The position numbers were made by a program, and so were the translations under genes. Positions 358 to 47,417 of a stretch of 64,000 nucleotides of DNA are shown piece by piece; position 1 is the first letter of the stretch; the number at the start of each line of letters is the position of its first letter. Source of the stretch: Larus michahellis (lineage: Eukaryota > Chordata > Aves > Charadriiformes > Laridae). The notes under the pieces were generated by a model. The model worked only from the letters and a program-made list of their open reading frames with translations, searched no databases and was not told the origin of the DNA. The DNA is taken from positions 23,469,583 through 23,533,582 of the forward strand of contig NC_133901.1 of NCBI RefSeq assembly GCF_964199755.1. Reading direction: 5' to 3'.

Positions 358-3300
358 CTAAAAAGTTAAAAGTAATAATTAAAACTCTGCAACATCATCA
401 TCATTCTAGAGCCATTGCCTAATTGTGTAAATGGATCATACCAGGAGCTCTTGAGACTGTTATGGTCACAATGGCATCTGATAATGGTGTGGCTTCTACT
501 TTCTGTTAGTGGTCTGGGAGTCTTGTATTTCTTTGGTTGCTTGGGGTTTTTTGGGTTTGGTGGTGTGGGGGTTTTTTTTGGTTTTTTTTTTTTTTTTTCC
601 TCCTTGCTTACAGAGCCTTCACAGACTGAAGTACTCTGAGAAAGTGCCTCACGCCTAAGGCTGGAGGCAGCAGTGTACGGTCTATTGGTGTTGTTCCATA
701 TTCTAACAACTGTGAGCAAAGAGAAGAACAATCCCACCAAGCATTTTCTGCTGAAATATGCATAATGGAGTTTAATTCCTTCACGTAAAGATCTTTATGA
801 AATGAAAATCTGTTGCACTCCCTCTTCCTTCGTGCTTTTTTTTTTTTTTTTTTAGGAAAGTGTCTTTTTCAGTTTCTGGTGAAAAATCTTACGAACTGCC
901 TTTGTCAGTGCTTTATTGACAATCACGTAAAGTAAAAGCCCTTACTTGAGTGTAATATGGTATAAGAAACTCCAGTGCCTTGATATTTATTTATTTTTAA
1001 ATCTCTGCAATAATGATGTTTACTTTTTCTCCCCATCTCAGTTCTGGAGAAATACTGTCTACTGCTGTAAGAAGGTTATCCAGCTCTGGGTTTTTTGTTT
1101 TGTTTTTTGTTTGGTTTTTTAATGCTCCTCTAGCACAGAGGCTCCTGTAGGTTTATGAAAGCTCTTTGAAACACAATATGCTGAGATTAGTAGCTCAAAT
1201 GCAAAAAGAAGCCTGGTCCAGGCAGGTTATACAGCAGAGAGCATCAGTTGCCCAGATGTTTTCAGGCTGGCTAGCACATTACTGCAAACTGGACTTCATT
1301 TGCTGGTTGCATGTGCTCTTCATCAGAATTCAAAAAGGCATAGCAGGCCTACTCCTTTGGTCCATCACTGCTCTAACCAGAGGCTTCTAGTACTGAGAGT
1401 GCTTTCCGTACTCTGAAACAGTATCGAGTGCCAGAAGCAAGAAAGCCCTTGGAAATACTGCTCAAACCAGTAGTCTGGTAGTCTGAGAAGTTTTGGGGTG
1501 GCTTCAGCAAAATGCATTTTCATGCTGATTGCAGGGAGGAAAACTGAGAGTTCCCTGCAGAAACGTGAGATGAAGCTCCTGGTATGAAGGAGACATAGCT
1601 GTGTAAATGTGAGCTTAAAAATGAGGCTCCATTGGTACTGCAGAGCTCTTTAAATTAAGAAGTTGCACTTCAGCCGTATGCCTTCTGTGGCCAAAGAGGA
1701 GTGTCATTTGGACGAACCAAGTAGCTATAAGGAGACTCAGAATGTCTGAGGCTGGAAGAGGCCTCTGGAGATCGCCTAGCCCTCCTAAAAGCAGGGTTGG
1801 TTAAAGCAAGCTGCTCGGGATGGTGTCGAGGTTTTGAACGTCTCCAGGGATGGAGAGTCCACGCCTCTGGCCAGCCTGTTCCAGTGTTAAATCACTCTTA
1901 CAATAAAAATGGTCTTGTATGTTTAAGTGGAAGTTTGTTTAAATTTGTGCCCCTTGCCTCTTGTCCTGTCACTGGGCACCCCTAGGAAGAGCCTGGCCCT
2001 CTTTCCTCCTTCTGTTCAAGTACTTACGCACATTAATAAGATCCCTTGTTTTCTCAAGGCTAAACAATTGCAGTGCTCTCAGCCTCTCCTTGTGTGGCCC
2101 ATCCAGAGGCAAACTCATTGATCAGGATACAGATGCAGTCACAGAGTATTTGTTCTGGAGCACTTATCCTGAAATAGTCTTTAATCTACGGTCTAAACAG
2201 ATCATCTAGAGCAGGGTATCTGTTAATGTGATCTTTTAATTTCTAAAGCACCTAAATTAAGGTGTATTAGAGGGAGGAATAGGCAAGGTGTCATTGAAAA
2301 GGGTTTGCAACTGCTTACTTGGGGCTAAATTCATGGTTTAAAAAGAGCTGTGAACTTAAATTCTTGAAACACTTTGGTGGAATAAGGCTCCTCTAAGAAG
2401 GAAAAGCTTATATATATTTTTAAGTTTATTTTTGAAGACCCAAGTGATAAAGTTGTGCAGTAAAACCATGCTTTGCAGGCAACTTGTATTGTATATTGTA
2501 GGCTGTTGCTGTTGACCTTTGTTCTTGTAGGAAATAAACAGAAAGGCACCAAAGACATTCTGAAGAATGCCATCAGCACAGGATGGGTTAGAAGTAGTTG
2601 CTAATGACCTTTTACTTACCTAAAAATGTTGCTATTGCTTCAACCGCTCCATTGTACACTGCAGAGCTGTGAGAGGGGGCTCTGAAGTCCCACAGCACTT
2701 GGATATAGTTCAGAACCTGGTTGAAGCCTGCTGTAGCCAGAGCCCACCACAGGGACCAGTAGAGAAGTTTCCTAGAGCTGTAGCAGTCCCTCAGGTCCTT
2801 GCTCAGCTGCACCAGGACTCTGAGCACGTGATTCTGGGGCTCGGCGTTATCAGCCTGCGCTTTGGGTGTTGGTCCCCTGTCAGCAGATACGGAGCCTTCG
2901 TCCTCGTGGCAGCTCGATGGCCCGTCGGGGCCAACTGAGGCCACGGCGGCTTTATCTGGTGCTGGGGGAGTTGGCGAGACATCCTTCCTGTGGAAGAACA
3001 TGCTCTTTTGAGGCATTGGGAGGAAAAAGGAACACACGAATGCCAGGGACACGGAAGCCAAAGTAATGGCGTTAAGGTGAAAGTAGGATACGTCTGCTAA
3101 GGAAACCAGCAGCTGTCCCAGCACGGCGGCAACGGTGGCCGCAACCAGGGTGATACTTCTGCAATAGCTCGTCACTCTCTGATAGTGATCGGGGCTGACG
3201 ACGCTGTAGATGTAGGCGTAATAAGCGACCTCAGTGGCTGTCGCCATCCCGTAGAAGAATTCCACCATCTGCATGGCCAGCACTCCATGTGCGAAGAGCA

Positions 3301-5641
3301 GCAAGAGCCACGTGATGATGAAGCTGATGCCCTGGAGGTGGAGGACGGGCTTGTAGCGCGCGTAGTCTGTAATCAGGAAGACTGGGAAAAGGAGTGCAAG
3401 GTAGGAGTATGTCCAAACTGGGAAAATCTGGTTGGTAACCTAGAAGAAAATAAAAGAAAATATTTTTATAAAAATATATTTAAATGTGGATTTTGAAGCT
3501 CTTTGACAATGATATTGAAGGAACATAATAGTGGTGACAGAAAACACTGAATTGTGCAGACTTAAACTGCCTTAAATTACAAAACTGTAAACGTACTCCT
3601 TAAGAGGCAAAGGTAGTGATGCTAGGCTCTACTACATGAACAGGTAGATTAGCTTAAAAAATAATTCTAGTAAAGGCCCATGAAGAAGGCAGATTTTGAT
3701 GCGCAGCTGTTTAAAGCAGTTATAACAGTGTTTGTGTCACAGGAAAGTCTGTCTAGCATCAAATCCTATTCCCCAGAGGAGCTGAAAAAGAATGCCTACT
3801 TACTTTTCACATGAGTCATTGTATACCTTTGGTCACCTCTCTCCTTTGTTACAACTTGGGGGGGGGAAAAAAAGCATATGCCTCTTACGATGGGGGAACT
3901 GGAAATGCACATAGTGAGTGTGTGGCTGTTACTATGTTCACCTTCTATATCTTCTTCAAACATAATGTGTAAGAAGGTAATTTTGGTAAGTTTCTGTTGG
4001 CCTTCAATGCATAGATGGTCTGAAAAGAAATTCTTTCTCTTTTTCTAAAACTGATCTGCATTCAGGTTGGAAGATGCTGTTTACTGTTGCCACTAAAGCT
4101 CAGAGCTTGCCCAGGCAGCTTGACTACAGCTGTGGGGTTGGATACCCCCATCTTTTAGACACAGTCACAGAAAAAGCTCACTTTGGGATGTGCAAGTTGC
4201 CTGTTTTGGGGAGGTCTTATCCAATAATTGCTGGACCTGCTAGGGTATCCATTCATGATCACTCCTTCTCTGCTTAAGCAATTAGACTAGAAAGGAATTG
4301 TTTCAAATGCTGGAAGAACGATAGTAGCTGGCTATCTTTTTACTTCTGAACTCGTACAGGAGCGAGTTGCATGGTGAGCAGCAGGTTCACTATATCTTTT
4401 GGGGTGACTTGTTTTGTTTCTCTGAACTTTAATTAGAATTTTTAAGTGTTTGACTGAAACTTATAGAATTATCTCACCGGATGTGAATTTAGCTGAAAGA
4501 GCCAGTATCTATATTATCCTTATTTTTGAGTTAAGGATTATTGCTGAATCAGAATTAAAGTATCCTATCATGCTATTTGTCTATTTCAGGTACTAAAGAA
4601 AAAAATTTCCCTTTGTGGTTAAAGATAATAAAAAGGGGGGAAACAAAACCCCAACAACCCAAACCATGAATACTTTTTTTTGGAACAAACTTTGGTTTTA
4701 CACTATGCTAGCAGATTCTGCCTTAACACCTGCTGCTGCACATCAAGAATGATTGTTCTTCCTATTAGCTGTATGTGGGTGTACCAAGCTTGTGGTTTCT
4801 AATTATATCATTAGCTCCATGACTCAGCCGCTTGTTAACTATGTCCCCTTTTGTTGGGAAGAGTACTCCTGAAGCAGCCTCTGCTGAACAGAGGAGTAGA
4901 GCAAGGAAACTTGCAGTGCGTGCTTTTGTCAAAAAAAAAAAACAAACCCAAAACAAAAAAAAACCAAAAAAAAACCACCAAAAAAACCCCAAACCAACAA
5001 CCACCAAACACCCAAACCAAACTTTTTTTGAATGTGAATCTGACCTCTGGAGGCTAATGAATGCATGGAACAGCCCTGTGATGCAGGTAATAATCTAACA
5101 GCTCATAAGAGGAAGTCTGCTTGGTTTTCTTATGATTTGCACTTGCTAAGTCGCTATCAGTGTAATCCACTACATCATAAATATAAAAGAATCTTAGTGT
5201 TGCCCCTCCACTGAGGTTCTAGGTGGGGAAAGGAACTAGCTGACCTGATTTTGCTGAAAGTATCAATTTCTTAACCACCAAAGTGGTTTCAAAGTCTTAA
5301 GAATGTAGGGACTTTAAAGTTTTAACCTTCTGCATGAGGTGACTCCTTACTCTTTTCCAGAAGCATCTTAAAAATTAGTCTCTAGATAAAATATTCCTGT
5401 ATCATTGAACACTTAATCTTCCCTTCAGTTATTGCTGTAAGACTTAATGTCTTAAGCATCTTAATTATTACTTAAGAGAATAGTTACATACCTCTTCAAT
5501 CGTTAGGTTTTTGTCCGGTCCAGTTAGATATGGAGTGAGAAAAGATTCTGATGGCCTCATTGCAGAGAAAAATCCATTTGCACAGATGATCACCGTGGGA
5601 TAAATCCAGCTACGGCATATGGCTCCCTTCCAGCAATCCAT
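165..5641 (-). CDS. SLC19A3: Thiamine transporter 2-like gene, copy A (first 3 coding exons; cut by window edge)
   Basis: Tandem paralogue of the copy at 10694-17317, same strand. Visible coding exons are 5641-5492, 3439-2620 and 357-165, together 1163 nt or 387 codons, with exon lengths 150, 820 and 193 identical to copy B. All splice sites are canonical and no stop or frameshift is visible, so it looks intact as far as it can be seen. The two terminal exons should lie to the left of position 1. Exon 1 differs from copy B at 16 of 50 residues and exon 3 at 12 of 64, so the duplication is not recent. Exon 2 encodes an identical protein segment. Which copy is the stricter orthologue of mammalian SLC19A3, and whether this one still carries thiamine, cannot be settled here. 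Confidence 0.9.
536..600. repeat. T/G-rich low-complexity tract
   Basis: Runs of T interspersed with G (ttggggttttttgggtttgg and similar) followed by a long T tract. Same composition class as the A/C-rich tract at 4931-5022 in the opposite orientation. Confidence 0.85.
1738..2115 (-). mobile_element. CR1 LINE fragment, 3' region, degraded
   Basis: Read on the plus strand this follows the reverse complement of the CR1 3' region: a ggctggaagaggcctctgg block, ccagggatggagagtccac, a cttgcctcttgtcctgtcac block, and a cagcctctccttgtgtggcc block. No open reverse transcriptase reading remains. Borders are approximate. Confidence 0.75.
2620..3439 (-). CDS. SLC19A3: SLC19A3-like copy A, coding exon 2 (820 nt)
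   Basis: Same borders and length as exon 2 of copy B. Protein identical from VTNQIFPVW to IATFL. Differs from copy B only at 2828, 2897, 2900, 2924 and 3287, all third-position transitions. The last seven bases before the donor and the introns beyond the acceptor's CTTCTAG do differ. Joined to exon 3 through a split Gly codon (Ser in copy B). Confidence 0.94.
3440..5491 (-). other. Copy A intron 1
   Basis: No exon recognised. Holds a G run near 3858-3866, an A/C run near 4636-4665 and a prominent A/C-rich stretch at 4931-5022. It shows no visible similarity to copy B intron 1 (16844-17167), which is far shorter, about 0.3 kb against 2.05 kb. Confidence 0.75.
4931..5022. repeat. A/C-rich low-complexity tract
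   Basis: About 90 bases almost purely A and C on the plus strand, made of irregular caaaa, caaac and ccaaaa units. Its complement (T/G-rich) appears at 536-600, 7510-7560 and 25966-26026. ORFs rich in Lys, Asn and Pro (or Phe, Gly, Val on the other strand) in these places are artefacts of composition. Confidence 0.9.
5492..5641 (-). CDS. SLC19A3: SLC19A3-like copy A, coding exon 1 (50 codons)
   Basis: Reads [17 protein letters not shown] and later [18 protein letters not shown] to NLTIEE, donor GAG|GTATGT. The Asn45 sequon is retained. Immediately upstream of the ATG is a long T tract ending AAGATAG on the minus strand, which fits a 3' splice site closing a 5'-UTR intron. Residues 6-11 are fully different from copy B (GAICRS against QEKSST). 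Confidence 0.9.
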
Positions 5642-8600
5642 AGTCTATCTTAAAAAAAAAAAAAAAAACAAAAAAACTGCAACAAATTGTGAAAGAATAA
5701 GCACACCAGGAATTTTATAAAGATGCTCTTCGGAGCATTCTTTTTACAAATTAATCTGTAAGTTTACTTTTTAACTAACCCTACTTCAGCTAATGTTTCT
5801 GTCACTAAACGACCGAGCCATCCCAGATGCAGCTTGTAAATGAATAACTTGGATCAAGGTGCTTTGGTGGTGGTAAACTCCAGTCTCTCTATCATCTATC
5901 AAAGGTTGTTCTTAATGACGTACTTAGAATTGAGCGGAGGTATCACAGTGGAAGAATAAAGTTCCATTACGGTCTCACTTCCGAATAAATGAGTAATGAA
6001 ACTGTGAGATTAGAGCTCGTTCTCAGCATGCTTAAGGAGGCTTTTTGCTGTTGATTGGCAGCCTGGGAGCCAAGTGGAACAACAGAAGTGAAGGCCTTTT
6101 TGCAGACAATAAAAGCCACCAACCAGCCAGCTCACAACCCGTTGTGAGCTCGGTTTCTTTAAAATACTCATCATATTTCTTGCACTCCAGTCATTGGAGC
6201 AGGTAAAGAAAGATGCAGAAACTGCCTGCTAATGGTACCTGTTCAGACTTAGAAAAGAGGAATCTTGACTTCACCTTCGAAAGTGATGATCAAAAGGAAA
6301 AGAATGAGTCTTCTTTCTTTGCTGTAGTTAGCACCAAAAGGAAGCCTGAAGAGATTTGGGTTTTTTTAACTTGCTTGTTTTCCATTAGAAAGTCAATTCC
6401 ACTCTTCCTGGAAAACAAGTGAAACAAGAATGTTCTGAAACTTAAAAGAATGAAAGCAAAGCACTGACTGATATTTAACCAAGCTGTTACAAGCTATTTC
6501 TTTTAAAACGTTGAATTCCATTTAATAGCAGGCACTTTTCAAAAGTGCTTCTACTTGCACTGTGAGATATTGTATTTATTAAAACTTAGCATAAATAGTA
6601 TACTATTAAGGCAGTATTTCTTTGACCTCAGAGGAACGTTACAAAAAACAGCTCTAACCTTGAAACTTGATTTTAAATGACTGCCTCTGATTATCATCTT
6701 TCTCTTACAAATCGTTGTATATAAAATGTAGTCGTATTATCCTTAACTCTAGTTCTGCTTTGAAATCTTTTGGTATCTGTTATCTTTTTCAAAATAAAAA
6801 TATGCTAAGCCCTGGACTGATCAATAACATCAGCATAGATCTTGCATCGCTTCCAAATGCACTGAGCAAACGAGTGGCCAGCAGGTGAGCAAATGACTCT
6901 GAAGGTAAGGAATTACCTGTCAAAGCTGCAGCTGTGGTGCCCTTGCTGTGGATTCATGTGCAGTTTCCTCCTAGGATAAACAACCCTTTAGTATTGGAGG
7001 TAGTAAGAAATTTCTGTGTCTTTTAAAAAGTCTCCAAAAAGTTCTTTCTGAAGTTGATAAAATGTTATCAGAATTGAAAAAAGTAATAATCGTAATAAAA
7101 ATTAATCACAGCTCTTCTTGCTCACAGACGGGCAAGCTTTATCCTTGACAGATTTTGTCAGCAAACTGAGTTCTAATTTTAAGAGCAAGCTTTAAGAATC
7201 GTAATAGCTAATGATAAATGAAAACTGACGTGGCAAGAAAGCGACCACTTGATTGCATTTTTGTGTTAATAAATACCTTTAAAAGCTCTGGTCTCCAATT
7301 CATAGATAAGACTTAGCACCTATTTTACAGTTGAGACTGATACTGACCCTCCCCTTTGCACTGGGAATTACTTCTATACAAGGACCAATCTGTCACCTAA
7401 GGGCAAATGGACAAGAAGCTTCCAAATCTAACTTCTAAGCTAAAAAATTAGAACTGCTTCAGAGAAATGCTCCTGCTTTTTGCCTTCCTTTACCTGTGTT
7501 GCTGTGTTGTGGGTTTTTTTGTTTGGTTGGTTTTTGTTGTTTTTTTTGTTTTTTTTTTTTGACTGGACTCCCTACTTTCTTTCAAGGTTCATCAGAGGAT
7601 GGAGCTGACGCTGAAGCTTGCTGGCGGGATGTGTGTTGACACTGGGAGCACATGCTGTGGCCCTCGCAGGAGGGGCCCCGTGTGGTCCCCAGAGCAGCTT
7701 TGTGATCTGACAGCGCCTGGTTGTCTTCTACAGCTACAGAAACTTCTCCCAGTGCTTTGAGTGGGTAGCGCAACCAGGCAGGCAAGTGGTCGGAGAAGCC
7801 AGGCTTGCCTCTGTGTTTCATTCTCTTTACCAACTGCTGCTGAGAAGGGAGAACCGTGGGGAAGGTGCTGCTGGGTCTGTCTGCTGGCCTGCTGAAAGGT
7901 GGCTGCTGACTAGCATTTCCCTGGTAGCCCACGCAGTGCTTGGTTAATACCTGCTTGCTTTGAGTACAAAGGCACAATTTGTTTGCTGCATTGTTGGCCA
8001 GAACTGGCCTTATCAGCTTGCTGAACCGTATCTTCATGGAAGATTTGTGCTTAAACTCACTAATGTTTCAGAGGTAGTTAAGTGTTTTATTTAGAGGGGG
8101 ATATAGCTATGGGGTGATGTGCTCAGCTCCGGATTTTCGTATTTATGTGGAATCCTTTAGTATGCTAGGAGAAAGATAAGCACTTAATACTAAAATCTGC
8201 AAGGAGAGGAGGATTTGTTCCGTTTCCTTTTCCTGCAGGACTAGAGAGCCTGAGGTCGCAGCCTTGCTCATAACCTGCTAGGCCTCAGCTATCTCCTCTC
8301 CAAAGAGTGTCTGTATGTCCATGAACACACAGGTAGATGTGTGCATCTTACTGTTTTGGATGAAATCTCTAACTGTGATTGCTGAGTTAATGCCAATTTT
8401 GCAGGTGAAATCCCAGAGTAATAATGTAAGGCCCTACCTTCCCCTTGCTGCTGTTTCCACCTCCAATGTGTCGTGTCCTTCCTAACACTCCTAAGAGCTG
8501 CCCTCTTCCTTCCCCATTATAGCCCCTTTCAAGCCCCGTGCTCCCCCCAACTCCCAACCTCAGAATCTTTCTTTTGTAAATTTGAGAAAATAGGAATAGA

Positions 8601-10693: not shown

Positions 10694-10873
10694 CTACAGC
10701 CGTGTCGCATAGCCAGTTGCAACCTGCTCTTTTGATTCGTGTTCAGCATGGTTCAGATGCTCTTTGCAAGATCTTGCTGTTTTCCTTTTGCATTTGCTTG
10801 AGGCAAGCATGCAAATGCTTCTGATCAAGAAAATCCCAGCTATGACTGCGAAGTAGCTGGCATAAATTAAAAA
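10694..10873 (-). CDS. SLC19A3: SLC19A3 copy B, terminal coding exon (59 residues plus stop)
   Basis: Follows acceptor CTCTCCCAG in phase with exon 4. It encodes the last membrane helix [19 protein letters not shown] and then a Lys/Arg/His-rich cytosolic tail ending GYATRL and TAG. It has no full-length ORF of its own and was found by looking for the family's [15 protein letters not shown] motif in the expected frame. The poly(A) site is not certain: minus-strand ATTAAA occurs near 9920-9925 and AATAAA at 9477-9482. Confidence 0.9.
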   Translation of the reverse strand, partial: FLIYASYFAVIAGIFLIRSICMLASSKCKRKTARSCKEHLNHAEHESKEQVATGYATRL

Positions 10874-13800
10874 CTGGGAGAGGGAGAGAAAAAGGCAGAA
10901 GAATTAATGAAAAACACATCAGGAAAACACTGTTGCTTCTGGAGATGACAGGCACTATTATTTTGTTTACCTGTGTTCTGGCATTGTTTCTCTATGTTCA
11001 AGTTTTTGTTTTGCAATTAAGCAAAATCTTAGCTTTTCCAGCAAATAGCAGATCTTTGAGGAATGAAGAACTGCCCCTTGCTTCCAGTCCTTATGCCTCT
11101 TAATAAACATCAGAGAGGGGAAGGGATATTTTTCTATTAGTGCAAGATGTAGAAGTAGCTTCACTACGTACATAGCCATGAATAACGTAAATGAAGGGTC
11201 TGAGTTGGTCCTTTTTTGCTCTTACTTGCACGTTTCAGTGCTGTCACCATGCTGGCTTCCGTAAATATACCATGACTTCGTATCAGTATTTCCAACAGTG
11301 GCAAGCCTATTTATGAAGTCCTACATATTGCTGTCATTAATTTTAAACTTTGAATTGTTAGTGTTTAATTCAATCTTTAATCTTTTAAGGTAACTTTTGC
11401 TTTCTCTGCAGAATATCTGAACAGCTTTAGTCTTTTTCAAATCCAGGAAGCTGCCCCAGCTGAGATCCCATCTGAGAAAATGCAGAAGTCAGTACGCTTC
11501 AGTTGACCTCATCCTGAGTGGAACTGGGCTGACCGAAGTTAGGGACACTGTTGTGAGATAGGATATCCCACCCCAAATTAAGTGCCCAAACTATGGTCAG
11601 AAAACTACTAATCATGCTGAGATACAGACCAGGTTTGCTCCTGAGATGGAATTAGAAGGCAGGTGTCCTTATCACTTGAGCTGAAATAACTCAAATAATC
11701 CAGGCTGTGTCTCATGATCTCAAACTCCCCTAAAAATATGTGGTCATGTTGATTCTGCATCTCAGAAAACCAGCCTGAATTTTTGGGGCAGAGAGGATGT
11801 TATTCGGTGTCCTATTAATTAGCAAAAGTTGGTCAGATAGCCCGATTATTTATGTTCTGGTGTATCTGCCCTTAAAAAGTCAAAGACCAGCATCTGTGAT
11901 CCTAAATGCTGCACTAAAAGGCAAAAGGGAAGAATGATGGCGGCACAAGGAAAGAGCAAGTTGTCCAGATTTCTGTAGATGAAAGAGGGAATTAAATTGT
12001 CCTTTGGCATAGCAGTTTCTTTCTGGGTAAACTTTTGAAGATGAATTGGCTAAGCATTAAATGGGAAGTAGAATCATAGAATAATTTGGGTTGGAAGGGA
12101 CCTTTTAAAGGTCATCTAGTCCAAGCCCCCTGCCATAAGCAGGGACATCTTCAACTAGATCAGGTTGCTCAGAGCCATATCCAACCTGAGCTTGAATGTT
12201 TCCAGGGATGGGGCACCTACCACCTCTCTGGGCAACCTGTGCCAATGTTTCACCACCCCCATTGTGGGGGGAAAAAAAAAAAGTCTTAAAATCTTCCTTG
12301 TATCTAGTCTAAATCTTCCCTTTGTTTAGCTTAAAATCATAACCCCTTGTCCTATTGCAATGGGCCCTGCAAAAAAGTTTGTCCCCATATTCTGATAAGT
12401 CCCCTTTAAGTACTGAAAGGCTGCAACACGGTCTCCTTGGAGCCTTCTCCAGGATGAACAACCCCAACTCTCTCAGCCTGTCTCCATAGGAGAGGTATTC
12501 CACCCCTCCGATCCTTTTTGTGGCCCTCCTCTGCACCCTCTCCAACAGGTCCATGTCTTTCCTGTGCTGAGGGCTCCAGAGCTGGATGCAGTACTCCAGG
12601 TGGGGCCTCTGGAGTAAGTTAATAGCACTCACCTGAGTCACTATGTTCAGTCCCAGGCCTTTTGAATCCACGACGACTACTGTAAGAATGGTCTGAATCA
12701 CCAGTGCAACAAAGTTGTTGAATCCAAACATCAAGGCGTAGCGCTCCATGCTCAGATTGACTGCAATCTGGAACCTAAGGTGAGACTGGCAGGTCAGTTA
12801 CTTCACACTGTGTGAAAGGTTGTTCCTCTCAATTTAGTTGATGAAGAAAAACCATCCATACAGATGATATATTAAGGATGGAGTAAATAGTGCAAATAAT
12901 GCTTCATTTGTTTGCTTCCTTGTTTGCTCCAAGCAACATCTTGACTACCATAGTGTATTTTGATGTTATTTTTACTTGCCTGTGTTGCTTTTCCAAAACA
13001 TGTTATCTGGTGATCTGCTTTATCCAGTTAGGAATCAGATCTCTTTAATCATCCTCTTTGTTTCTCCTCTACCTTCACAAACTGTGCAAGACAGGTTGTA
13101 AAGTCTCCACAGAGGCTTTGAAAGACATGTCCAGACAAAACCCTGACCTGACCTGGCATTGGCAGGAGTTCTGCCCTGGCTGGGATGTTAGACTAGAAGG
13201 TCACTATGGGTATCTTCTAACCAACTTTTCTATGATGGTGTGAATCACTTCTTGCTTTGTGGCTGGACAGTTGAGGTAGCATACCATTTATTTCTGTCAA
13301 GAGTCTGTAGATTTGCCTTGCAATTTCTTTTTTGACAATAATTGGAACACCTTTTCTTGCAATATTTACCTCCAAAGTTTCTATCTGAACAAATATGTGC
13401 TAGTCCTGCAGCACCCTCTTGGTTTTTATCAGGGCTTTTTTTGTGCAAGCTTTTACTTTTTTTTTTTTTTGGTAGAATATGCTGAAGTAGTCCAGGTGTG
13501 ATCCACTACAATGTACTAACAATCCACCAAGATGAAAACCGAGGATTCACTTGGCTTCATTAGGTATACCTTTTGTCATGCATTACAGTTTTAGCAGTTT
13601 TTTGAAATGATATCTGAATCATTTGGGGGTTTGACATAAAAAATTCACTGGGTATTTTTGTTAATGAAATAGTTTGGCATGTCTAAAGACATTCCAATAA
13701 ATAAAATAACTGGAGTAATAAAAATGTTTTATATTTATTACACAGATTATATATTTTTTTATTTATATTATTTTTATTTTTCTATTTCTGACAACAGAAT

Positions 13801-16800
13801 AGCTTGATCTCCTAAGAGAGTCTGAGGTTTTTATATGTCCAATGTTTTCTTTTCTTGTTTACATCATGGTATCATTAAGGGTTATATGTATAAAATTATG
13901 TTGGGGAATACTGTATGCCGAATCTTTTCTTGCATTCATGCAATTCATAGCTTGCTAACAAGTATATCAGCAAGCTGGTCTAGACGTAATTGGATCTTAA
14001 GGGATGGTTTTCTAGGCATGCTTGTCCCTCTTGTTCACTTGGCATCTTCTATGCCAGGAAGAAGGAAAATAGCTTATATGTTTTGCTGTTACTATTGCCT
14101 TTAGTAATAAAGATGCCTTGTACGTTGTTTAATTTCTGCCTAGGTATACGTTCAATGTCCTTTTAATAATTTTTTTATGGTTGTTTAGAAGAATGAAAAC
14201 AGCATAACTAGACACTTAAGTGTCCTTGTCTTTACCTAAACAGTTATGTCTAGCATTAGATCGGTGACCTCTGAGTAAAAGGAGGGATGTCCAAACTTAA
14301 AGTACTGTTGGTATTTTGTGTATAATAGTAGCACTGTAAGGTTTTATACTTACGTTGCTATTGTTATGAGGAGCATATAGCATGCTTTGAAAATGAGATA
14401 GCCGGCGTAACATGCCCAGATGTTGGTAGTGAAGTGCATGAGAAATAGAGAACCAGCATCTATTGCAGAGAAGATCCCTAAAGCCAGTTCTCCAAAAAGG
14501 TCCCAGTTAATTTTCATATATTGTACTACAAAAGATGTTACCGAACCTAGAAAAAGAGGAAAAAAACCATGTAAATATTGTATCTGTTCTATATCCTACA
14601 TCACCAAGTCTTGCTACCCTCACATGCTGAAAGGCAATGCTGAAGAATGATGCAGAATAGCTCTGGAAAGCATTTCTAATCACTTCTAAGTTGTGCAGAT
14701 GACTGGTCATTTTTAGACAACCGCATAAATCAAGTGTCTGCCATTCCTTTCTTAATGTTTTATTCACAGGATAAACTCTTATATAGAAAGATTCATTATT
14801 TATCTGTCTGTACCCAGCATGTATCTCTAGGGAGAGAATTAGTAACACAGTTTGGAATTCAAGAAGAACAATTCTTCCAGCTTCCACTAGCTTACTTTAT
14901 AGATAAGTTAGTAAATAATTACCTTCTAGTGTAACAGTTTAGCTCAGTGCAGCTAAACTCTCGAAAAAGGGAGTTTTGTGAGGTATCAAGTGAATGTGTT
15001 CAGGGAAATGAGAAAGGACAGGCACTGTTTGCTTTTGGTGGGCCTGCTACAAAGATGCATCTGTTGCAAAGGCAAACCTATCCATCTTAGGGTTCTCATC
15101 CAATTTTAAAACTCCTGCACCTCTACATTGAGAAACGGGCAATTCCGTGAGAAAGAGGAATTCACCAATGAGTAGACACTACAGGAGTTGCGTGCTTCTA
15201 ATTCGTAATTCAGCTGGTCGTTTTAGTTCCCCACCTCAAGACGAGAGTGATTTTTAATCTTAGAAGTATCTGTTTCTCCTTAATGACTGTGAGGCTAACC
15301 TGAATGACCAGGTATGATGTAGATGTGTTTATTTTCCCTGGTGGGTCACACCCCAATGTCTTGTGCAAGTTCTCTACAGCAGCACAATATGAATATGTGA
15401 AACACTGCCAAGCCAGGGTGGTATCTTCTGATGTTAGCTTTTGATAACATTACTTTGCTTATACGGTGCGGGCATCTGCTTCCGGTGGAAGAGAGTAATG
15501 GTTAATATCAGTAGCGTAATGAATTCAATAAGGTCTTTTCTGCAAATTTCCATATCTTGAAATGACTAAAATTCTTCTTTCCCTCCTGCTGCGCAAGAGT
15601 ATTTCACTAGCAAGATCTTAATGAGAGGATTATGTTCTTTTACACTAAAATATTTATGAAAAACTTCTTTCATCTGCGTAAGCTGATACCGTTGTTATGG
15701 GGACTGTGTGATATTTGTTTGGGGAAAAAAAAAAACCCCAAAAGAAACACGGGTACCTCTGAATGGATTTAGAAGCTGGATGCAAGGTCCATGTGACTTG
15801 TACACACTCTGCATACCAGTAGGATAAAGTTGGGTGTCCCAGCCATAAAGAAAAATAGCATAGCTTGCATTTGAACAGTTTTGTACACCACAGAACTAGA
15901 TTTTGAGTGCCCAATGCATACGCTGGCTTCCTGGAGCATCTGCAATGGACTGGCACTTTAAAAATGTTCTAAAGTAAAACTTCAGAAGCTGTCTTTGTGA
16001 TCGATGCTTAGACACTAACTTACTCAGAAAAGTTGCTATTGCTTCAACCGCTCCATTGTACACTGCAGAGCTGTGAGAGGGGGCTCTGAAGTCCCACAGC
16101 ACTTGGATATAGTTCAGAACCTGGTTGAAGCCTGCTGTAGCCAGAGCCCACCACAGGGACCAGTAGAGAAGTTTCCTAGAGCTGTAGCAGTCCCTCAGGT
16201 CCTTGCTCAGCTGCACCAGGACTCTGAGCACATGATTCTGGGGCTCGGCGTTATCAGCCTGCGCTTTGGGTGTTGGTCCCCTGTCAGCAGATACGGAGCC
16301 CTCATCCTCGTGGCAGCTCGATGGCCCATCGGGGCCAACTGAGGCCACGGCGGCTTTATCTGGTGCTGGGGGAGTTGGCGAGACATCCTTCCTGTGGAAG
16401 AACATGCTCTTTTGAGGCATTGGGAGGAAAAAGGAACACACGAATGCCAGGGACACGGAAGCCAAAGTAATGGCGTTAAGGTGAAAGTAGGATACGTCTG
16501 CTAAGGAAACCAGCAGCTGTCCCAGCACGGCGGCAACGGTGGCCGCAACCAGGGTGATACTTCTGCAATAGCTCGTCACTCTCTGATAGTGATCGGGGCT
16601 GACGACGCTGTAGATGTAGGCGTAATAAGCGACCTCAGTGGCTGTCGCCATCCCGTAGAAGAATTCCACCATCTGCATGGCCAGCACTCCGTGTGCGAAG
16701 AGCAGCAAGAGCCACGTGATGATGAAGCTGATGCCCTGGAGGTGGAGGACGGGCTTGTAGCGCGCGTAGTCTGTAATCAGGAAGACTGGGAAAAGGAGTG

Positions 16801-17317
16801 CAAGGTAGGAGTATGTCCAAACTGGGAAAATCTGGTTGGTAACCTAGAAGAGAAGAGGAAATCTCTGTGTTGTTACTCTTGGGAAAAGTAGTTCATTTAT
16901 TTAAAATGGCTTTGTAGAGGAAAGTTTTTGCTCTGAAGGAATTCATAAAATATATAACCACACCGAAGCAGCATATGACTGTTGAACAGGCAAGTGGATC
17001 TTAAATCCATTAAATGGTTCTTTTATTTATGCCATCTGCTGCAAATTGTGACCTGCCAAAGCTGGTTATAGTGTGCTTTTTTTTTCTTTTCTTAAAAACT
17101 TTGTTCAAAGTTTGTCTTTTTTTTTTTTGCTGTTCCATATAAAAGAAAAGGCAAAGTGAAATCATACCTCATCTATGGTCAGGTTTTTATCTGGCCCTGT
17201 TAGATAAGGGGTTAGGAAAGGTTCTGATGGTTTCATCATGTAGAAGAATCCGTAGAGGCAGAGAATCAAGGTGGGAAAAATCCAAGTGCTGCTTTTTTCT
17301 TGCTTCCAGCAATCCAT
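10694..17317 (-). CDS. SLC19A3: Thiamine transporter 2-like gene, copy B (complete, 5 coding exons)
   Basis: Solute carrier family 19 member of the major facilitator type, a plasma-membrane thiamine importer in the known family. Coding exons on the minus strand are 17317-17168, 16843-16024, 14546-14354, 12774-12633 and 10873-10694. They join in frame to 495 codons including the stop, giving 494 residues, close to the roughly 496 of human SLC19A3. All introns have GT/AG ends. The family motif [11 protein letters not shown] is present, with an N-glycosylation sequon at Asn45. Hydrophobic helices occur in every exon, with a long polar loop in exon 2 (residues about 200-245) and a short basic/polar C-terminal tail. 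The next gene downstream on the same strand is a paralogue (copy A). Exon 2 is almost identical to that of copy A although exons 1 and 3 are not. The family call is very sure; one-to-one orthology with mammalian SLC19A3 rather than a sister paralogue is less sure. Confidence 0.93.
10874..12632 (-). other. Copy B intron 4, largely filled by a CR1 insertion
   Basis: Between GTGAGT at 12632 and CTCCCAG at 10874. The 5' part of the intron, from about 12622 down to 12071, is CR1 sequence. The rest shows no recognisable feature. Confidence 0.85.
12071..12622 (-). mobile_element. CR1 LINE, 5'-truncated, 3' end present
   Basis: On the minus strand it encodes the C-terminal part of CR1 reverse transcriptase: [20 protein letters not shown], then [20 protein letters not shown] and DRLRELGLF. 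It continues through the CR1 3' UTR to the typical terminal region, which on the plus strand reads agaatcatagaataatttgg. A short A run at 12270-12281 interrupts it. It starts only about ten bases beyond the exon 4 splice donor of SLC19A3 copy B. Nothing suggests it is active. Confidence 0.92.
12633..12774 (-). CDS. SLC19A3: SLC19A3 copy B, coding exon 4 (142 nt)
   Basis: Acceptor CCTTAG, donor CAG|GTGAGT. It encodes [20 protein letters not shown] and then a helix ending LGLNIVTQ, as in SLC19A2/3. Open reading continues past the donor into CR1 LINE sequence, so a naive ORF call wrongly fuses the transporter to reverse transcriptase residues. Confidence 0.93.
12775..14353 (-). other. Copy B intron 3
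   Basis: No exon recognised. Contains a short CR1-like 3' remnant near 13165-13245, a T run near 13457-13472 and a strongly AT-rich patch near 13721-13795. Confidence 0.7.
13165..13245 (+). mobile_element. Possible CR1 3'-end remnant
   Basis: The words gttagactagaaggtcacta and cttctaaccaacttttctat followed by gatggtgtgaa resemble the CR1 3' terminus (gttggactagatgatct...ccttccaacc...ttctatgattctatga) with several differences. Short and degraded. Confidence 0.5.
14354..14546 (-). CDS. SLC19A3: SLC19A3 copy B, coding exon 3 (193 nt)
   Basis: Acceptor TTTTTCTAG, donor AC|GTAAGT. It reads [16 protein letters not shown] through [16 protein letters not shown] to LLITIA, typical of the SLC19 C-terminal helices. 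It joins exon 2 through a split Ser codon. It is 52/64 residues identical to the matching exon of copy A (165-357). Confidence 0.93.
14547..16023 (-). other. Copy B intron 2
   Basis: About 1.5 kb between exons 2 and 3. No repeat or exon recognised apart from a short A/C run near 15722-15745. It shows no obvious similarity to copy A intron 2. Confidence 0.65.
16024..16843 (-). CDS. SLC19A3: SLC19A3 copy B, coding exon 2 (820 nt)
   Basis: Starts VTNQIFPVW after acceptor TTCTAG, and ends IATFL plus one base before donor GTAAGT. It encodes several membrane helices (for example around [20 protein letters not shown] and [12 protein letters not shown]), the polar central loop, and the helices after it. 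The exon is markedly richer in GC than its surroundings. It matches copy A exon 2 at 815 of 820 positions across 16032-16851. Confidence 0.95.
16844..17167 (-). other. Copy B intron 1
   Basis: A 324-bp intron from GTATGA to TTCTAG with two pyrimidine-rich runs on the plus strand (17080-17094 and 17117-17129). Only the last seven bases before the acceptor match copy A. Confidence 0.8.
17168..17317 (-). CDS. SLC19A3: SLC19A3 copy B, coding exon 1 (50 codons)
   Basis: Begins [12 protein letters not shown] and ends NLTIDE before donor GAG|GTATGA. An in-frame ATG lies 18 codons upstream, but the intervening bases contain a branch-point-like TTCTAAC and a pyrimidine tract ending in TCCTCAG and CTGCAG just before the MDC start. 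They therefore read as the end of a 5'-UTR intron, so the MDC start is preferred. It encodes the first membrane helix and the conserved [16 protein letters not shown] segment. Confidence 0.92.
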
Positions 17318-33594: not shown

Positions 33595-33800
33595 CAGATG
33601 TGTGATGAACTGGCAAGACACTGGAACAGTGTTGCCCAGGGAAGTTGTGGGTGCTCCATCCCTAGAGGTGTTCAAGGCCAGGTTGGATGGGGCTTTGAGT
33701 AACCTGGTCTAGTGGAAGATGTCCCTGCCCAGGGCAGGGGAGTGGAACTAGGTGGTCTTCAAGGTGCCTTCCAAGTCTGACTGTTCTATGAAAGTAATGG
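33595..33800 (+). mobile_element. CR1 LINE 3' fragment
   Basis: Plus-strand sequence runs in CR1 order: cactggaacagtgttgccca, ggtgctccatccctagaggt, gttcaaggccaggttggatg, gggctttgagtaacctggtc, tgtccctgcccagggcaggg, and a final ggaactaggtggtcttcaag block ending in a ttctatgaaa terminus. No coding part is left. Confidence 0.9.
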
Positions 33801-45500: not shown

Positions 45501-47130
45501 ACTGCTCCTGAATCTTCTGCTACAGAAGCAAGGAAAGGAGGCGAGAGTTGAGGCCTGATTTGACATATCATTTTCCAGTGTCGCTATTGATGACAAGCTG
45601 TGAGGTGTGCATGTGCAGATGGAGACTTACAGCAAGAAAGTGAGGAGAGAATGTGCCGAACCATCGGGTACTGACGTCATGGAGCTCTGCAGCCGTTCCA
45701 TTTCCCTCTCCTCCGCTTAGACTGGTCTGCACTTGCCCTTTCTGTGTCTCATGAAAAGCAAACACAAAAAAAAGCTTGTTGGCATATGATATGCAAAATG
45801 ATTGAAAAAATGATTGCTCAAGAATATCACAATAATTGATTCAATGATGCAAATACAACCCTGAAGTATAGAATTGAAGAGATGTTTACTATGTAAGTTA
45901 TATTGGAACTGCAGATACTCATTTATGCTTTAGAGAAGTATCAAGCTTTTAAATTTGACTAAAAAAATTAAATGTAGCACTTCTAGTTGGCATTAAGTAA
46001 CACTGACGGCACCAGAAAGTCTGCATGAATGTGTGTTTATGAAGAACAAAGAAGGTGTTAATGTAGGAAGCAGTGCCTATGCCATGTTCATTGGTAACAT
46101 CACCTAAGTTAAAAGAACAGAAAAATGTTTATATTCAGAAATTATAACCTGGGTGGATACACATTATGTTAAACGAATACAAAAGGCTGTTAAGAAATTG
46201 GAGACCACCAAGATTAGAGGTTGTTCAAAAAGCTATTTTTCCACATAAGTCAATTCAGTTGGAAAGCTGTTCGGATTCTTTGTTTCCAATACAAGTATTT
46301 CTTATCTGTCTCAAGACTTTCCATGTACAAATAAGACAAAAGATTAAACCAAACAAATAGGAATGAAAAACCCAGAGACCACTTTGTCCCCCAGTCATGT
46401 CCCAGAGTAAATCTGGAATTGGCCATTGTATTTTACTTCCTGGCTTTCAAAAACCAAAGGACTGTCTTCAAAGTGAAGCTGCAGGGAGCCATATGGGTGT
46501 TTTCGGAAAAGTCATGTTTTGTTAAACACTGACTGGGACTGTCTTCTGTTGACCCATTGTCAACAGTGTGGGCTATGAGATTTGCTAAATGAAAATGTGT
46601 TCACTGCTTCCCCCTGTTGATGCTCTACAGTCATTTCTGCATAAAGCTCCACTCAAATTTTGGGTTCTATTAATAATACTAATCTTTTAATGATTCCATG
46701 TTGGTCGTCTCTTTTCATATAGATTCTTTCTTCTCTTTGATGAAAGAGCATTTTCATACTCGTGTCTCTGTCCTGAGTTTCTTTTAAAAAAAATTAAGCT
46801 GATTAGGTTCTCTCTTTTCTTTTTAATCTTTGCCTTAGTCATTAAGTGACTATGTGCTTTTCAGGTAGCTTTCATATATTTATTATGCCGTTACCCCTGG
46901 CTCTTTAGCACTCCGAATTTTATAATTTTTTAGTGCACTCCGCCCTTTGAAGGTCTCCTGCTTCCCTTTCTGCGCCATAGATCAGAAGACCATGCCAGCT
47001 CTGCATGAATTATACAGGGCGAGCCGTTCTAGCTGTCGGCATTCAGGTAGCCGAGACGAGCCGACTGTGGAAACTGCAGAGAAGCCTTGCAATACTAAGT
47101 GAAAGGATGATAAAATTCAGCGGGGATAAC
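36594..47130. other. Interval between CCL20 and the DAW1 promoter
   Basis: About 10.5 kb, AT-rich, with no gene recognised. It holds one patch of overlapping minus-strand frames (37498-38111) that I cannot assign, short homopolymer runs, and no clear mobile element. It may contain enhancers for CCL20 but nothing in the sequence proves this. Confidence 0.6.
37498..38111 (-). other. Patch of overlapping unassigned minus-strand open frames
   Basis: Three frames of 84-108 codons overlap or abut on the minus strand. One starts MADKRKDELQKQYETFNRPK; another contains a hydrophobic FFILIFTFLFCSLAL stretch; the third runs MLVPDLACKLFDPKQEP onward. The way open reading shifts from frame to frame could mark a decayed processed pseudogene, but I cannot name a parent. 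Confidence 0.2.
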
Positions 47131-47156
47131 TATATGCCTACGCACAGGAGGCCTCA

Positions 47157-47252
47157 GCTGCGCGGCCGAGGCAGGAGGAGGACACGGCTGCGCAGCCGAG
47201 GCCTAGGCCTCGGCTGCGCAGCCGTGTCCTCCTCCTGCCTCGGCCGCGCAGC
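47157..47252. repeat. Perfect 96-bp palindrome, no spacer
   Basis: Two 48-base arms are exact reverse complements centred between 47204 and 47205 (centre CCTAGG). The first mismatching pair is 47156/47253. Each arm holds two near-repeats of GCTGCGC(A/G)GCCGAGG around a GGAGGAGGACAC segment. It can fold into a cruciform or a very stable hairpin. It lies about 230 bp upstream of the DAW1 start codon, in the CpG-rich promoter area. A fold-back assembly or amplification error is the main alternative. Confidence 0.95.
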
Positions 47253-47417
47253 CACCAGGGCCGGTGCTCAGTGCTCCACACCGGCTTCACACCGGCTCCC
47301 CACCATGCCCCTCCATCTGTGTGGATGCCAAAAGCCCGGCCCCAGGGGCTTGAAGAAGCACCGCCATACCCCACCCAGGCCCGAAGCGGCGCCCGGGCCT
47401 TCCCGCCTGAGGGCAGG

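Follow-up and report, generated by a model that had tools for sequence, protein, structure and literature searches.

Gene conversion is a well-known process, and the described systems closest to the locus reported here are (i) the avian receptor pairs TLR1A/TLR1B and TLR2A/TLR2B (PMC3125219), (ii) the sodium-channel genes and duplicate exons of newts (PMC8476164), and (iii) the primate opsins. Like the two SLC19A3 genes of Larus michahellis, the TLR pairs are old bird paralogues in which one or two blocks have been homogenized and another block has diverged, and their conversion is reported as recent, 0-20 Mya in birds (PMC3125219). The TLR blocks are parts of coding sequence that lie beside other coding parts, whereas the SLC19A3 block is one exon with unalignable introns around it, and the TLR study covers many species where ours covers one genome. 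The newt genes resemble our case in the exon-scale homogenization of tandem paralogues and in the use of a longest-identical-stretch test; in newts, however, conversion spread resistance substitutions (PMC8476164), whereas the SLC19A3 case comes without an identifiable adaptive change. Primate opsins are likewise tandem paralogues that mix homogenized and diverged segments, but there the introns are homogenized and an exon is held apart by selection. SLC19A3 is the mirror image, with a homogenized exon between diverged introns.

The SLC19A3 pair is a new, very clean, exon-sized instance of this process. Our literature search on exon-limited conversion returned no match, and among the matches listed for SLC19A3 duplication or conversion in birds, judged by titles and abstract openings, nothing was on point. 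Working from the sequence of one assembly, we consider it very likely that interlocus gene conversion within exon 2, probably recurrent, is the best explanation for the pattern described below.

Two tandem SLC19A3 genes at one contiguous locus

We analyzed a stretch of 64,000 nucleotides of Larus michahellis (contig NC_133901.1, positions 23,469,583 to 23,533,582), referred to here as the window. Two intact SLC19A3 genes, copy A and copy B, lie in tandem at this locus, 13.4 kb apart, on the same contig and in the same orientation. Read on the minus strand, and with DNA to the left of the window included, each has five coding exons, GT-AG introns and no internal stop codon; copy A encodes 475 amino acids and copy B 494. 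Exons 1, 3 and 4 are small (142-193 bp). The exons, all from GT-AG gene models, and the shared tract are as follows, in window coordinates (negative numbers lie left of the window):

5492..5641, minus strand, copy A exon 1 (start codon)
2620..3439, minus strand, copy A exon 2, 820 bp, Pfam Folate_carrier PF01770
165..357, minus strand, copy A exon 3
-510..-369, minus strand, copy A exon 4 (left of the window)
-1424..-1302, minus strand, copy A exon 5 (left of the window)
17168..17317, minus strand, copy B exon 1 (start codon)
16024..16843, minus strand, copy B exon 2, 820 bp, Pfam Folate_carrier PF01770
14354..14546, minus strand, copy B exon 3
12633..12774, minus strand, copy B exon 4
10694..10873, minus strand, copy B exon 5 (stop codon)
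2628..3447, minus strand, near-identical tract of copy A, made up of 812 bp of exon 2 and the 8-bp acceptor end of the upstream intron, with 5 differences in 820 bp and sharp edges
16032..16851, minus strand, near-identical tract of copy B, used in the ungapped comparison with the copy A tract and in the edge test

Both copies are predicted SLC19A3 thiamine transporters. PF01770 covers its full model in each (E = 1e-177 for copy A and 3e-178 for copy B), and the top match of copy A among solved proteins is human thiamine transporter 2, with transporter 1 and the folate carrier lower. For further members we scanned the whole assembly, 616 contigs totaling 1.405 Gb in which the window lies on contig C10. 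A DNA search found three places, namely copy A, copy B and SLC19A2, and a PF01770 search found 17 exon matches, of which eight belong to the two SLC19A3 copies on C10, four lie on C11 and five on C1. Elsewhere the family is thus represented by one gene on C11 (SLC19A1-like) and one on C1 (SLC19A2-like). Neither whole-genome search yielded a third SLC19A3 copy that could have served as donor. In SLC19A2, the counterpart of SLC19A3 exon 2 is broken by an intron of ~3 kb (parts 4459-5064 and 8091-8315 of the extracted SLC19A2 stretch); the long unbroken exon is therefore a feature of SLC19A3, shared here by SLC19A1. Collections of other genome contigs and viral contigs, searched on the slim chance of stray bird sequence, contained no relatives of the locus.

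There is no run of N between copy A and copy B, and the locus is contiguous. To the left of copy A, runs of 66 and 371 N lie at window coordinates -5733..-5668 and -5372..-5002, and from there to the right end of the window there are no further runs.

The shared tract and the divergence around it

According to the first-pass annotation, 2628-3447 matches 16032-16851 in a gap-free alignment with five differences in 820 positions. We reproduced this exactly; the differing positions of copy A are 2828, 2897, 2900, 2924 and 3287. The annotated intervals describe the tract rather than the exon, since exon 2 proper is 2620-3439 and happens to be 820 bp long as well. The two are offset by 8 bp: at the donor end, the final 8 coding bases fall outside the tract and differ at four positions, while 8 intron bases on the acceptor side are common to both copies and lie inside it. 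Ungapped identity is 0.994 across 2628-3439 and 0.24-0.33 in five outer 100-bp blocks, and it falls to background within 8 bp of either edge of exon 2.

A low-stringency gapped BLAST of the two gene regions returned six matches, five on the five coding exons and a sixth off-exon. Those on exons 2 and 3 spill ~60-70 bp into an adjoining intron at lower similarity; for exon 2 this extension reaches ~70 bp into the downstream intron, where similarity is much lower. In a self-comparison of the whole window, the matches above 100 bp were the exon 2 tract, the exon 3 match (79.5%) and one pair of inverted repeats. The latter (12091-12248 and 33618-33774, 78% identical) may be an avian CR1 retrotransposon, which it resembles.

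We compared silent divergence between copies A and B exon by exon with our own script for the Nei-Gojobori method; a dS above 1 is near saturation. Exon 1 has 34 of 50 residues identical, as previously noted, and a dS of 2.30. Exon 3 has a dS of 1.18; it had been counted as 52/64 and is indeed diverged, although the correct figure is 51/63 for whole codons, or 52/65 with the split codon. In exon 4, 44 of 47 residues are identical and dS is 1.32, and the first 25 codons of exon 5 retain 17 identical residues with a dS of 0.91. Exon 2 stands apart: all 273 full codons encode the same residue in both copies and dS is 0.042, a level that neither exon 1 nor exon 3 approaches. Eight silent differences fall in exon 2, five of them within the tract, and for the tract alone the exon counts give ~193 silent sites and, by arithmetic, a dS of ~0.026. 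At four-fold sites, exon 2 shows 1 change in 143, whereas the split codon and exons 1, 3 and 4 together show 35 in 60. Similarly, 7 of 262 degenerate codons for the same residue differ silently in exon 2, versus 55 of 120 elsewhere (Fisher 5e-25).

The identity of the tract is not a matter of chance, as shown by two calculations. In the alignment of exons 1-4, the longest identical run is 362 bp, whereas the maximum in 20,000 shuffles of the 119 differences was 148 (a GENECONV-like test run with our own script, not GENECONV itself). The hypergeometric probability of finding at most one of the 36 four-fold differences in exon 2, which holds 143 of the 203 sites, is 6e-22. The longest identical runs in the other exons are 15 bp (exon 1), 14 bp (exon 3) and 32 bp (exon 4). 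A recent duplication of the whole gene is ruled out by introns that do not align and by a dS of 1.2-2.3 in exons 1, 3 and 4.

It had also been argued that selection on the protein would not hold silent sites, and our controls back this. Over the first 151 exon 2 codons, copies A and B differ at none of 77 four-fold sites, while copy A differs from SLC19A2 at 33 of 51 and from SLC19A1 at 28 of 38; silent sites of this exon are therefore able to change. Together with exon 4, in which 44 of 47 residues are kept at a dS of 1.3, the SLC19A2 comparison indicates that constraint does not explain the identity of exon 2. Furthermore, a cytoplasmic loop in exon 2 is poorly conserved, with 15 of 48 aligned residues matching human, yet copies A and B are the same there.

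Probable conversion and the alternatives to it

On the conversion account, A and B would be old tandem duplicates whose introns and small exons have drifted apart. Exon 2, at 820 bp, is the sole long shared block remaining between the copies, and hence would be the sole place where one gene could act as the repair template of the other. Non-reciprocal exchange with the neighbor as template would copy sequence within exon 2 and would stop at the exon edges, where homology runs out. By the usual estimate, exchange becomes efficient at ~200 bp of identical sequence. Because the identical runs of 14-32 bp elsewhere fall below this length, and because ordinary tracts are short, exon 2 probably never diverged far, and many exchanges over a long time would be preferred to one late repair of a diverged exon. 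The mean non-crossover tract of zebra finch is given as ~32 bp and kilobase non-crossover tracts as <2% in baboons and humans (PMC12047795), and the human rate of interlocus conversion as ~1e-6 per site per generation (PMC4467073). The 812-bp tract far exceeds the zebra finch mean, which counts against the conversion account. The earlier interpretation is supported in part: interlocus conversion confined to exon 2 is strongly supported by the contrast in dS (0.042 against 2.30, 1.18 and 1.32), and "recent" holds for the last exchange, although a single event appears less likely than recurrence.

All five differences within the tract are synonymous transitions, and four of them lie at CpG, a context that makes up 74 of 812 positions (P of four or more out of five = 0.0003 under uniform placement). 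Synonymous transitions mostly at CpG point to ordinary mutation following conversion. Four of the five are also clustered within 97 bp (P = 0.026, again under uniform placement), and the tract may therefore be a patchwork of several tracts, or the cluster may merely reflect the density of CpG in the loop.

The alternative that survives best, though we regard it as improbable, is an error of assembly or polishing by which one exon 2 was written onto the other locus. Identity is so high that short reads could indeed be misplaced. However, the few differences carry the mutational signature just described, the final 8 exon bases and the unrelated introns are particular to each copy, and the stretch with both genes has no N run. 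Cross-polishing, moreover, presupposes exons that are already nearly identical.

Slightly less probable still is RNA-templated conversion, in which a reverse-transcribed transcript of one copy repairs the other and the exchange ends at exon borders. Such a cDNA would account for tract edges at most 8 bp from both splice sites, but the same edges are expected if homology survives in exons alone. The tract also passes the acceptor by 8 bp into the intron, although so short a pyrimidine/AG match can arise by chance, and exons 1, 3, 4 and 5 bear no trace of conversion. Finally, strong purifying selection acting on exon 2 at the nucleotide level in both copies (through RNA structure, splicing or other signals) would fit its long identical runs, but it is very improbable, as it would have to span nearly all 143 four-fold sites and then halt at the exon edge, in a homologous exon whose silent sites are free between SLC19A3 and both SLC19A2 and SLC19A1.

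Exon 2 has a GC content of 0.55 and a GC3 of 0.67, whereas GC3 in the other SLC19A3 exons is 0.40-0.60; the first-pass annotation was correct that exon 2 is the GC-richer, but not in taking this as a mark of biased conversion. GC3 is 0.74 and 0.73 in the matching exons of SLC19A2, a gene that lacks a close duplicate in this genome (its later exons have 0.45, 0.64 and 0.53), and 0.82 in exon 2 of SLC19A1. The control is imperfect in that these genes lie on other chromosomes and SLC19A2 exon 2 is near a GC-rich first exon. Because the unconverted counterparts are equally rich or richer, GC-biased conversion is not supported as the source, and we regard the richness as a family trait of the exon.

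Taken in 200-bp blocks, exon 2 has a CpG observed/expected ratio of 0.57-0.92 in three of four blocks and of 0.07 in the final one, where the window as a whole has 0.27; the last 200 bp (2620-2819 and 16024-16223) has a GC content of ~0.53 yet is nearly devoid of CpG. Elsewhere in the window, the sequence from 46741-47356 onward is CpG-island-like (820-bp windows with GC of 0.55-0.65 and CpG ratio of 0.67-0.73). Since recombination events of zebra finch are reported to be enriched at CpG islands (PMC12047795), a CpG-rich exon could draw breaks.

Age of the duplication, the thiamine pocket and implications

Outside exon 2, copies A and B form a group apart from human, supported at 95/91 when an SLC19A1 row is included and at 76/66 without it, and in an AU test on the latter tree neither human+A nor human+B was rejected (p = 0.216 and 0.22). 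Given this lower support and the unrejected alternatives, the tree leaves the age of the duplication unfixed. Shared residues differ between two sets of exons. Across exons 1 and 5 the two copies have 51 of 75 residues in common, and they share 51/75 and 52/75 with human; in exons 3 and 4, the corresponding figures are 96/112 between the copies and 77/112 and 78/112 with human. This contrast could reflect either older layers of conversion in exons 3-4 or uneven selection. We tentatively suggest, as a possibility rather than a probability, that exon 2 is a self-sustaining island of homology, kept identical by repeated conversion since a duplication that may be older than crown birds, with exons 1 and 5 diverged as far from each other as from human and intron boundaries marking the limit between concerted and freely diverging modules.

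Exon 2 also carries the greater part of the thiamine pocket. Thiamine contacts are named in a cryo-EM study of human SLC19A3 (PMC11447181), and of the 14 that we took from it, 12 map to exon 2 and two to exon 1. By sequence alignment, all 12 contacts in exon 2 are the same in A, B and human; of those in exon 1, Glu32 is kept and human Ile36 is Thr in both copies. The copies agree at all 27 positions that we checked, and selection alone could therefore keep the pocket alike. Conversion accounts for the silent sites and not for the need of the pocket.

The pair offers a clean natural case of homology-limited conversion, with one exon at almost no silent divergence and other exons near saturation. 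Trees, dating and short-read variant calls based on exon 2 would mislead. Amprolium is a poultry drug against coccidia. It is reported to bind human SLC19A3 (PMC11447181), and pocket-binding inhibitors of this kind would encounter identical exon 2 residues in the two transporters. If conversion has been recurrent, the locus raises the question of how tracts of ~32 bp, as given for zebra finch, homogenize 812 bp, and it would allow us to ask how long one exon can sustain concerted evolution.
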